Source: a virus. From it: DNA of 45,751 nt. Numbering within the stretch: the stretch's first letter is position 1; every line of letters begins with the position of its first letter. Positions 32,806 to 42,854 of this stretch are shown here, piece after piece. Location: the IMG/VR virus record IMGVR_UViG_3300047319_000394, positions 1 through 45,751 of that record, one strand, 5' to 3'. The position numbers and the translations under genes are program-made. The notes under the pieces were generated by a model that ran no database searches, was not told the DNA's origin, and saw only the letters and a list, made by a program, of their open reading frames with translations.

Positions 32806-33200
32806 ACGCCTATGCACAAGCCGCCGCTACACTTCCGCCAGTATCGCAGACCTCCGGCATCGACTGGCCGCTATTGCTCGGCATCCTAGCCGTAGTTGGC
32901 GTCGTCGCTCTGATCATCTGGGTGAAGCATCGCAATCCGGCTGCAACCGCCGCGGCCGCAACCGTCGTCAGCGCGGACGCCAGCCATCTCGGGACCGTAA
33001 TCGTGGACGAGTTCGCGAAGCTGCGGGCGGCGTTCGAATCGAAGTTTGCGCCCGCGGCGGTTACGATTACTGGGGTCGTCGGCGAACCTACGCCGCCCGC
33101 GCCTGCCGGAAAGTCCGGTCAGGCCGGCGTGTTTACGGCGACGGTGACGGGCGATCCGAAGGTCGATCTTCCGGCGCTAACGGCGGCCTATCTCGGCTGA
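32802..33200 (+). CDS. single-pass membrane protein, end of lysis operon
   Basis: 132 aa from ATG 32802, with AAAGGAACGCC upstream. One strong membrane helix (residues 23-42, LLLGILAVVGVVALIIWV). Then a region with FAKLRAAFESKF and a Pro/Gly-rich tail. Possibly a second holin or antiholin. The last 68 bases overlap the 3' end of the opposite-strand glycosyltransferase gene. Confidence 0.65.
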   Translation: MNAYAQAAATLPPVSQTSGIDWPLLLGILAVVGVVALIIWVKHRNPAATAAAATVVSADASHLGTVIVDEFAKLRAAFESKFAPAAVTITGVVGEPTPPAPAGKSGQAGVFTATVTGDPKVDLPALTAAYLG

Positions 33201-35262
33201 CGCTCGCCCACATCGTCCGCACGGCCTCGACGACTTCGTCGACGGTGATGTCTTGCATACATTTGTGCGGCGTGTCGTCGTCATAGTTTGGCCGTGGCGG
33301 ATTGATGCATGGTCCTCTTGGCATTCTACTTATTTGTGGCGATTCTCGAAAGCACGGCTGGCACGGCAGCCCCTTGCTGATGTTCGTATTACCCGGATAG
33401 CCCGCCGCGCTCGCCTGCGTCGACCCCCATAGGATGACGCCGGGCACGCGCCGACCTCCGTTCTCGTCGGTCCAGTAATAATTCGTCAGATGATTACAGA
33501 ACGAGTCGATTCCCATGTGCATCGTTGCGTTGGCGAACATGGCGATCGATTGCGCGAGCGGCCAGCCTTGCCCCGCGTCGATCTGGATCATTTGTATCTG
33601 CGGCTCAAGAGCTTGCCTAACTTCTAGCCATCTGCTATCCGGCCACTGCTTGTACCGGCTCCAGCCGGCGTGACTTTGCCAGGTTGCGTAATGCTTCGGC
33701 ATCGTCGGAACGTCCGTCCGCTTCGGCCGCCGCAGCGTCAGCGATGGCAGACCGTATTTAAACGGGTCGAGCGGCGGCGCTGGCATACAAGGGAATAATC
33801 CCATTTCCTGAGCAAAATACATAAGCAGGTGCCACCGCATCGGCTTCTCGGGATACCCTTCGGCCAGCGGATACCCGACGAGGTCGATCACGCGATCGTA
33901 ATTCTTCCGCCATTGCGGCAGGCCGGCGCAGTCCATGACGGCGTTCGCCCCGGCCGCCAAGATGATCCCGCCGAGCGCGTCCATCGACGCAAGCCCGGCG
34001 CTGCAAAAGTAGTGTACGTCGGTATCGGGATTCGCTTCCTTGAACGCCGGCAGGAGATTGAGCGTCATCAGAATGTCGCCGATCGCGCCTGGCCGGTGCA
34101 GCGCGACCATACGGCGCAGACCTTTGACGATGGCCGGCGCTTCCGGCGCTTCGAGCATCGCCGACAACCGCGCCTCGCGTCTTGCCCAATCCTCGTCATG
34201 CTGGCCGATCAGTCTTGTTGCCAGTTGCGACCATACGAGCGCCTGCGCCTTGTTGCCCAGATGCTCATGGCACCAGGAAATCAGTCGGGCAGGCTGATCG
34301 CGGTACATCTGCGGCTCGCGCCATAGGACGGTCTGCGGGATCGGTTTGTCGAGCGCTTGGCTGGCCTGAGCGATGCACGTCGCCCATTCTTTATGGTCGT
34401 ACGCGATGAACGCGAGTTCCATGCGGAACTCCTGCCAGTCGGTCGCGGTGGACATCGTTTCTGCGGACTGCGCTGCTAGGTCAACGTCGCCCTGCCTGCC
34501 GGTGCGGCGCAGCGATCTAATGCGATAGAGATATGCGAATAGCTGCTCGTCGCGGAAAGCGTCCCCGTAGTCGATTCGCTTGTCGTACCATTTGATCGCT
34601 TCATCAAACCGCCCGCCGTCCTTGTGCGTATTCGCAATGTAGAACGCCGTCCTCGCGTCCGGCTCGGCTGCATACTGCGCGGTCAGGATGCGCAGATTCC
34701 GCTCGTTCGACGTTTCGCCGCTCGACTCGTGCGCTGTGCCATCGTGAACGATGCAAAGGTCATTCATGACAGCTTGCGGTCTGCCGGAAATATCGGGCCA
34801 CTCGTGGACGTAGCCGTGAAATCGTATCTTCTGGCTGGCGTCCCATGCGCGATAGTGGACTTGACGAACACCGCCGCCGAGTTCTATCCAGCATCCCCAG
34901 ACTCCGTTCGGCATATATGCAATGCGGCGCGCGGCAAGCGGCGTCGTCACTTCGTCGTCGCTGTCTATCCAGAAAAGGTGACTGCATCCGGTCGCTTCGG
35001 CAAGTTCTATTGCGTGATTCCTGGCCTTGGAAAAATTAGCGATTCGCCAGTTGCCATCAGGTCCGAGCTCGCTCGCATCCGTATAGACCTCGTACGTCAT
35101 CGGCGTTTTAATCGACGCTTTTGCGATGGCTTGCGTATTGTCGGATGATCCGGTGTCGACGATGACGACATGATCGGCGAACGATTCGACGGAGCGCAGC
35201 GCGCGCGGAATATCACGCTCCTCATTCCTCGTAATTAACCAGACGCAGATTGACGGTTTCAT
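33133..35262 (-). CDS. bimodular glycosyltransferase GT2-TPR-GT9
   Basis: 709 aa. Residues 1-175 are a family 2 glycosyltransferase: [29 protein letters not shown], and a D-S-D metal site at 100-102. Residues 185-370 look like TPR helices, as in SunS-type enzymes where TPRs follow GT2. Residues 383-690 match GT9 heptosyltransferases: [17 protein letters not shown] with Asp396, a central [20 protein letters not shown] and a Cys-rich end (PCQPCFRE). It could move two sugars onto a protein, lipopolysaccharide or DNA base. Its partner is a methyltransferase three genes upstream. Start ATG at 35262 overlaps the HNH stop. Confidence 0.85.
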
Positions 35263-41848: not shown

Positions 41849-42047
41849 CGCTACCCGCTTCCGCGCCGCCAACGGTCGCTACGCCAATCGCGAGCAGTTC
41901 GCTTGGGTCGAGGCCCCGACCGGCGCGTTCCGGCCTAGCCTTACCGTGGAGCCGAGCCGCCCGGATATTCCGACGTTGACCGACGCTGTAACCGAGCGGA
42001 TGCCGTTCTGGTGGCGCTGGTGGCTGTTCCTGAGCGGGCAGACGTGA
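41841..42047 (+). CDS. small hypothetical protein
   Basis: 68 aa from GTG 41841, with GGAG upstream, overlapping the cro-like gene by eight bases. Starts PNATRFRAANGRYANREQF; the C-terminus is Trp-rich (FWWRWWLFL), perhaps membrane-associated. Unknown function. Confidence 0.55.
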   Translation: MPNATRFRAANGRYANREQFAWVEAPTGAFRPSLTVEPSRPDIPTLTDAVTERMPFWWRWWLFLSGQT

Positions 42048-42854
42048 GTGGACAACAGCTTACCGTTGGCTCCCTGTTCGCCGGAATTGGCGGATTCGAC
42101 CTCGGGCTTGAGCGAGCCGGGATGCGCGTCATCTGGCAGTCCGAGATCGATCCCTACGCCTGCGCCGTCCTGCGGAAGCACTGGCCTACTGTTCCCAACC
42201 TTGGAGACATACGAGGAATCACGGCCAAGACTGTGGCAGACGCCATCGGTGGAGGATGCAGGACGGCAGGGCAGCGAGAAGGCTTGGAAGGAGTGGACGG
42301 ATGGCGGCAGGACGACGCAATGCCGACTGCGAAATCAAGTTATGTCGATGTCCTCTGTGGCGGCTTCCCCTGCCAGGACATCAGCAACGCGGGGAAACGG
42401 ACAGGGATCGACGGCGAGCGGTCAGGATTATGGAGCGAGTACGCCAGAGTTATTGGCGAGCTACGACCCCGCTACGTCATCGTGGAGAACGTCGCAGCTT
42501 TGCTTGGACGGGGAATTGAGCGAGTTCTCGGAGACCTGGCCGCGCTCGGGTTTGACGCGGAATGGCATTGCATACCGGCTTCCGCAGTTGGTGCGCCTCA
42601 CCGACGCGACCGAGTCTGGATTATTGCCTACGCCAAACGAGTCGGGACCACAAGGACGGAGAAGCTCCGCGCTATCGGGACGAGATATTGCAACAGGACA
42701 CGCTGGGCAGGGTGCTTGGTGGATCACTGAACCCAACGTGGGTCGAGTGGCTCATGGGATACCCAGCCGAGTGGACCGCCTTAGATGCCTCGGCAATGCC
42801 ATCGTCCCGCAGATCGCGGAAATCATCGGGCGGGCGATAGTGAGCGCACAGTGA
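42044..42854 (+). pseudogene. C5-cytosine DNA methyltransferase, split by one extra base
   Basis: From GTG 42044 the first frame carries motif I (TVGSLFAGIGGFDLG, 8-20), motif IV with catalytic Cys110 (GGFPCQDIS), motif VI ENV (148-150) and motif VIII (RRDRVWIIAYA), then turns to nonsense and stops at 42730. The +1 frame over 42700-42854 carries the missing end (VGRVAHGIPSRVDRLRCLGNA), including motif X-like IVPQIAEIIGRAI. Removing one A from AAA at 42635-42637 joins the two into a 269-aa enzyme. A sequencing error, a true mutation or +1 frameshifting are possible. About 40 extra residues lie between DIRG and motif IV. Likely protects phage DNA from host restriction. Confidence 0.85.
42048..42840 (+). 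CDS. overprinted ORF in methyltransferase gene (SETWPRSG/WVEWLMGYP family)
   Basis: GTG 42048, just after the preceding TGA, opens a +1 frame with LWQTPSVEDAGRQGSEKAW, SYDPATSSWRTSQL, FSETWPRSGLTRNG and LLPTPN. The sense then passes to a third frame: TSRDHKDGEAPRYRDE and SLNPTWVEWLMGYPAEWTAL, ending at 42840. I recognise these phrases from a family of phage proteins of unknown function. Removing the same A at 42635-42637 that repairs the methyltransferase also makes this a single 263-aa ORF. It may be truly dual-coding, or the family may be a frame echo of the conserved methyltransferase. Confidence 0.5.

Follow-up and report, generated by a model that had tools for sequence, protein, structure and literature searches.

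In the C5 methyltransferase M.HhaI most of the conserved motifs lie in a large domain, and a small domain holds the target-recognition domain (TRD) and motif IX (see also PMC3404938). Enzymes of this type made of two polypeptides are already known, namely M.EcoHK31I and M.AquI. The large subunit of M.EcoHK31I (YGGCCR) carries motifs I–VIII and X and its small polypeptide only motif IX, the predicted TRD having been assigned to the large subunit (PMC3404938). The split enzyme M.AquI (CYCGRG) has motifs I–VIII in its large polypeptide and the distal TRD, IX and X in its small one (PMC3404938). C5 methyltransferases with several TRDs occur in phages, as shown by titles cited in PMC8936443 on M.SPRI and M.H2I of Bacillus phages and on M.(phi)BssHII, the TRDs of which lie at separated locations. 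A different kind of out-of-frame coding is the ShiLan domain (PMC11855218), an HNH endonuclease concealed in another frame of a phage methylase.

The methyltransferase locus and its frame offset

The sequence studied, here called the window, is the whole 45,751 nt stretch at positions 1–45,751 of IMG/VR virus record IMGVR_UViG_3300047319_000394, a tailed phage that encodes a RecT-like protein and an exonuclease besides its terminase, portal and tail genes. Its DNA cytosine-C5 methyltransferase (42044–42854; Pfam PF00145, E=6e-44) is preceded by a Cro-like gene and a small ORF and followed by a VRR-NUC-like ORF and an N4/N6 methyltransferase. The last of these (PF01555, 43900–45270), just downstream, gives the phage two DNA methyltransferases of different type. 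The N-terminal half of a large minus-strand ORF (33136–35262) matches a family of phage beta-1,4-glycosyltransferases (PHROG 13126). We refer to the product of the first methyltransferase frame as alpha and to that of the +1 frame as beta; the features of the locus are as follows.

42044–42730, + strand: alpha frame, catalytic C5-methyltransferase polypeptide with motifs I–VIII, cut by the frame offset after VIII (PF00145, E=6e-44; translation)
42048–42854, + strand: ORF as it stands, 268 aa open, comprising the beta N-terminal half and, past the offset, the alpha C-terminus with motif X (PHROG 1008, E=3e-17, residues 99–208)
42044–42050, + strand: coupled starts GTGAGTG, alpha GTG at 42044 and beta GTG at 42048 (sequence; 4-nt offset in 72 relatives)
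42231–42341, + strand: putative additional TRD-type module (LWQTPSVEDAGRQG...LRNQV), read in the beta frame and lying within the insert that alpha has between motifs III and IV (comparable PTP inserts in relatives)
42342–42350, + strand: possible alternative internal beta starts, ATG 42342 and ATG 42348 (ATG comparably placed, 25 codons before SGLW, in 18/58 relatives)
42359–42376, + strand: alpha motif IV, GGFPCQ
42426–42636, + strand: constrained core of beta, DYGASTPELLASYDPATSSWRTSQL...SETWPRSGLTRNG...LLPTP, overlapping alpha motifs IV–VIII (onset of excess +1 conservation; 5 stops against 157 expected from SGLW to motif IX)
42633–42641, + strand: net one-base frame offset splitting both subunits (translations)
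42640–42840, + strand: beta continued in the other frame, with TRD module (TSRDHKDG...), motif IX LNPTWVEWLMGYPAEWT (42727–42777) and C-terminus
42789–42854, + strand: alpha C-terminus with motif X, LGNAIVPQIAEIIGRAIVSAQ

A first-pass annotation of this DNA had placed the two start codons four bases apart, both touching the preceding stop; the upstream ORF indeed ends with a TGA at 42045–42047 that overlaps the alpha GTG and abuts the beta GTG. The family-like phrases it quoted are likewise present: the 42048 frame contains LWQTPSVEDAGRQG, SSWRTSQL and SETWPRSGLTRNG, and the 42049 frame contains LNPTWVEWLMGYPAEWT.

Motifs I–VIII are read in the frame of 42044/42050 by translation, and past motif VIII both proteins switch frame, motif X (LGNAIVPQ, 42789) to that of 42048 and motif IX (42727) to that of 42049. 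The same annotation had held that a single shift affects both frames, and the net one-base offset at about 42633–42641, which adjoins an AAA at 42635, does move both proteins. As it splits both subunits just past motif VIII, the window copy is probably broken or mis-sequenced. We consider there to be a good chance that this copy, and this copy only, is a decaying pseudogene pair or carries a sequencing error, which is compatible with a two-subunit enzyme in the family as a whole: the offset lies beside a run of A, and the record is a single virus contig; we found no second copy of it, and scanning across the offset turned up no near-identical contig. Decay is harder to reconcile with the two frames being otherwise open and family-like on either side, and we therefore favour a recent event or an error over long decay. 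A window-like offset, with motif IX in the +2 frame relative to alpha, occurs in another phage contig (L029:2001–2691). An E. coli prophage copy annotated as a pseudogene because of an internal stop (L284:3000–3761) has stops in both frames a few bases apart.

The +1 frame is a conserved, nested gene

Relatives of both frames were gathered from viral contigs and bacterial genomes, and the amino acids of alpha were held fixed while synonymous codons were resampled and stops in the other frames counted. Selecting loci for an open +1 frame before counting their stops would make the argument circular, and loci were therefore classed by the presence of motif IX in either frame, in addition to synonymous recoding. 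Across 59 non-redundant relatives the +1 frame contains 13 stops compared to 186 expected, whereas the +2 frame of the same genes matches expectation (483 observed, 464 expected). Between SGLW and motif IX the +1 count is 5 against 157 expected (+2 frame 386 against 387), and a second, distant clade of 51 genes yields 2 against 191 (+2 frame 548 against 545). The evidence for +1 coding across relatives is thus overwhelming, compared to modest evidence in the window sequence by itself (198 codons with 1 stop where 5.0 are expected, P about 0.02). Members of the second clade (L285:42–1028 and L288–L367) encode a divergent methyltransferase of the PCQPFSAAG type, found in E. coli prophages, with the same nested +1 subunit.

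Hundreds of phages and bacteria share the two-frame layout. Nearly every viral relative has a +1 frame that stays open over 200–370 codons and contains LNPTWVEWLMGFP, which as a rule lies some 62 nt upstream of alpha motif X, and 215 of the 216 loci with motif IX in +1 are free of stops in the 100 codons past SGLW. Excess +1 conservation has a sharp onset at alpha SGLW (beta DYG..TPELLA) and extends through motif IX. When codons are permuted within alignment columns, z is 18 for the +1 frame and 9 for the +2 frame; since the +2 excess reflects shared ancestry and constraint on beta, we place the main weight on stops and on periodicity.

Substitution rates at alpha codon positions 1/2/3, estimated from 65 independent pairs, change along the gene. 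Before SGLW they are 0.142/0.102/0.410, the pattern of alpha constraint only, and over motifs IV–VIII 0.155/0.082/0.269, indicating constraint in both frames. In the TRD (0.432/0.288/0.343) the most variable position is the third position of beta. In a class of 12 loci with motifs IX and X in alpha, here called the L153 class (0.239/0.066/0.088), and in the second clade in E. coli prophages (0.185/0.059/0.045), the TRD rates indicate beta coding with little constraint on alpha. The periodicity of substitutions shows the TRD region, which lies between motifs VIII and IX, to be coded in the +1 (beta) frame.

These results bear on the suggestion that the +1 phrases are a frame echo, kept only through the conserved methyltransferase and its codon usage. 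The same phrases do always lie over the same alpha motifs, and +2 also shows some excess conservation over the nulls, as shared ancestry and beta constraint would produce. Furthermore, a stand-alone beta, which the first-pass annotation had recommended looking for, was not found among 80 bacterial hits, all 80 of which lie at least partly in the +1 frame of an alpha (the scan used a motif-IX pattern that diverged copies could escape). However, stop avoidance is confined to +1, TRD substitutions track the codon rhythm of beta, the conservation of modules marked by a PTP motif (see below) is seen in beta but not in alpha, and the beta family also exists outside the overlap in gp70 of mycobacteriophage ShiLan and, for the most part, in Arthrobacter phage Chocolat. 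The recoding and periodicity tests already refute an echo, to which we give a negligible chance of being correct. The earlier proposal of a second family overprinted and under selection is borne out in that recoding, within-column codon permutation and codon-position substitution patterns agree; the same proposal would have taken a lack of +1 constraint and of stand-alone homologues as signs of an echo, and the constraint is very strong.

Putative recognition modules, motif placement and beta starts

Beta holds one to several units of the form (W/L/F)PTPxAxD..., and where there are several PTP modules they are reused at different positions. The GNYN unit, of which we found 13 distinct copies, occurs both N-terminally and in the TRD, with a mean identity of 0.73 in the beta frame compared to 0.36 and 0.37 in the other frames. 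The PTP modules are putative DNA-reading units. The insert before motif IV, said in the first-pass annotation to be family-like in +1, contains a PTP module in that frame in 22/26 relatives with a long insert, and the LWQTPSVEDAGRQG unit of the window occupies the same N-terminal position.

Alpha contains motifs I, IV (PCQ), VI (ENV), VIII and X in conserved order, with X beyond the frame offset in the window. Beta carries a conserved motif IX, LNPTWVEWLMGYP, that is absent from the alpha frame, where motifs I–VIII and X reside. Motif IX is thus in +1, and not in the alpha polypeptide, in the window lineage and most relatives, and nearly all loci combine IX in +1 with X in alpha. Several lineages arrange the same parts differently. 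In ShiLan gp70 motifs I–VIII, three LPTP modules, IX and X follow one another in one frame, and the protein has a match to PHROG 363, the alpha family, as well as one to PHROG 1008, the beta family (E=2e-61, residues 196–388). In Chocolat, gp80 contains I–VIII, and gp81, lying mostly outside the overlap, contains PTP modules, IX and X. Motif X is in the small subunit, as in M.AquI, in L006 and L188 and not in most relatives. We considered whether the L153 class might be plain single-chain enzymes and rejected this, as its motif IX is in alpha but its TRD modules remain in +1. There the +1 frame has conserved stops within 100 codons past SGLW, and the TRD modules are read from an internal start after them, with 0 stops compared to 62 expected; 10/12 loci have an in-frame ATG with an AGG about 7 nt upstream. 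From these layouts it follows that the order I–VIII, TRD, IX, X is constant and that the frame holding IX or X varies.

Two further arrangements were seen. In L188:2180–4048 alpha ends after VIII, the beta modules stop, and IX and X lie together in one frame some 700 nt later. In L043, L076 and L114 the beta frame holds HNH-endonuclease-like sequence between IX and X, recalling a ShiLan-type homing insert.

A profile of IX–X from single-frame relatives aligns to motifs IX–X of E. coli Dcm at residues 399–447 (RRLTPRECARLMGF..QFGNSVVVPV) with E=0.0016, a score from a one-sequence comparison that is weak on its own. The alignment of the L153 class to E. coli Dcm by hhalign ended at motif VIII, as did the match of ShiLan gp70 to PDB sequences.

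Beta could begin within 10 nt of the alpha start, in a frame open to SGLW, at 86 loci, 72 of which have an offset of 4 (ATGANTG; GTGAGTG in the window), often behind a good ribosome-binding site. A further 120 loci have a +1 stop between the alpha start and SGLW and therefore need an internal beta start.

A predicted two-subunit enzyme and its known counterparts

We propose with considerable confidence, on the basis of sequence comparison, that the locus belongs to a family of two-subunit C5 methyltransferases with alpha and beta encoded by one DNA segment. Alpha would be the large catalytic domain, with motifs I–VIII and X, and beta the small domain, with one or more target-recognition modules and motif IX, its N-terminal part overlapping alpha motifs IV–VIII. 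Beta would be translated from its own start, either 4 nt past the alpha start and sharing its ribosome-binding site, or internal, and would join alpha in a presumed heterodimer to complete the catalytic enzyme. This enzyme probably methylates the phage DNA such that host restriction enzymes do not cut it, a putative anti-restriction role. Given the domain layout of M.HhaI, the split would follow the domain boundary.

Modelled with AlphaFold, alpha (pLDDT 78, pTM 0.76) has M.HhaI as its best PDB match (E=2e-15). The first-pass annotation had given the second family an unknown role, which holds insofar as searches of Pfam, NCBIfam, PADLOC and PDB sequences found no match for beta (nothing credible in the PDB profile search); the role need not remain so, as position, fusion and motif IX point to a target-recognition subunit of the same methyltransferase. 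All 59 aligned beta members match PHROG 1008, and beta proteins also fall in PHROGs 31772, 26627, 27243 and 35493; these five families are labelled ‘DNA methyltransferase’ or unknown, and their entries do not state an overlap with another frame. Counting against the two-subunit reading are the low confidence of the beta model (pLDDT 61, pTM 0.22, modelled alone) and these absent matches, the prediction of the TRD in the large subunit of M.EcoHK31I compared to beta here, the alternative candidate start codons of beta, and the split in the window copy.

The poor fold model and the lack of a recognised domain would also suit a beta that is a real protein with an unrelated job, such as a regulator or an anti-restriction protein, overprinted by happenstance. 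This is most improbable, as beta carries a motif IX that alpha is without, is always tied to alpha in the bacterial hits (80/80), and has its modules, together with IX and X, as the C-terminal half of a single-chain methyltransferase in ShiLan. Slightly less improbable, although still doubtful in our judgement, is that programmed ribosomal frameshifting fuses the frames into one polypeptide, with I–VIII from alpha, TRD–IX from beta and X from alpha again. The linear order I–VIII, TRD, IX, X is kept across frames and the alpha-frame TRD stretch is barely constrained, as such fusion would predict. However, beta is constrained some 100 codons upstream of any useful shift site, the main class would need two shifts, and separate translation fits both the coupled starts, offset by 4 nt at 72 loci, and the internal starts, which have ribosome-binding-like sequences.

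In the public records inspected, a single frame is annotated across the full overlap. This is the alpha frame in Aubs, Yong-M4-211, BU730P1, E. coli and Leptospira, whereas Vibrio phage 1.291.O and Pseudomonas phage phPA-G have beta annotated. It seems likely that a large share of phage and prophage C5 methyltransferase genes are two genes in one, the annotated frame giving the catalytic half and a mostly unannotated +1 protein with exchangeable modules the DNA-reading half, and that IX and X can change frame between lineages. One piece of DNA seems to encode two structural domains of a single enzyme in different frames, an arrangement present in two distant clades and in hosts as varied as E. 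coli, Leptospira, Bacteroides, mycobacteria and cyanobacteria. With one frame annotated, cloned or predicted methyltransferases of the overlapping type may look inactive or be assigned a wrong specificity, and a gene caller that prunes overlaps would lose a subunit that the enzyme needs. For research on overprinting the family offers a long (200–370 codons), deeply conserved overlap of partner proteins, with natural single-frame controls in ShiLan and the L153 class.

No report of the two-frame layout in phages was found in the literature searched, subscription papers lying mostly outside it, and no annotated relatives of M.EcoHK31I or M.EaeI were found in the plasmids or E. coli genomes searched. 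What is new is the prevalence of the arrangement, the TRD in an overprinted subunit, the reuse of (W/L)PTP modules, also in the III–IV insert, and the migration of IX and X between frames among lineages. The ShiLan domain is similar in being an out-of-frame ORF within a phage methylase gene but is a homing insertion, whereas beta would be part of the enzyme, and the passages of PMC11855218 consulted make no mention of the beta frame. The layout of M.AquI is matched by Chocolat gp80/gp81; unlike M.AquI, the window and most relatives have motif X in alpha and genes that overlap almost completely. The N-terminal and central modules of phage beta suggest TRDs at separated places like those of M.(phi)BssHII, which differs in being, like M.SPRI and M.H2I, a single chain. 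M.EcoHK31I is alike, by description, in having an alpha with I–VIII and X and motif IX in a second polypeptide, the parts of the window subunits being one base out of frame. The beta of M.EcoHK31I, like that of the phage loci, is encoded inside its alpha gene in an alternative frame. The two differ in that the predicted TRD of M.EcoHK31I has been assigned to the large subunit, whereas here the TRD substitutions follow the beta frame. No restriction gene was recognised beside the phage pair.
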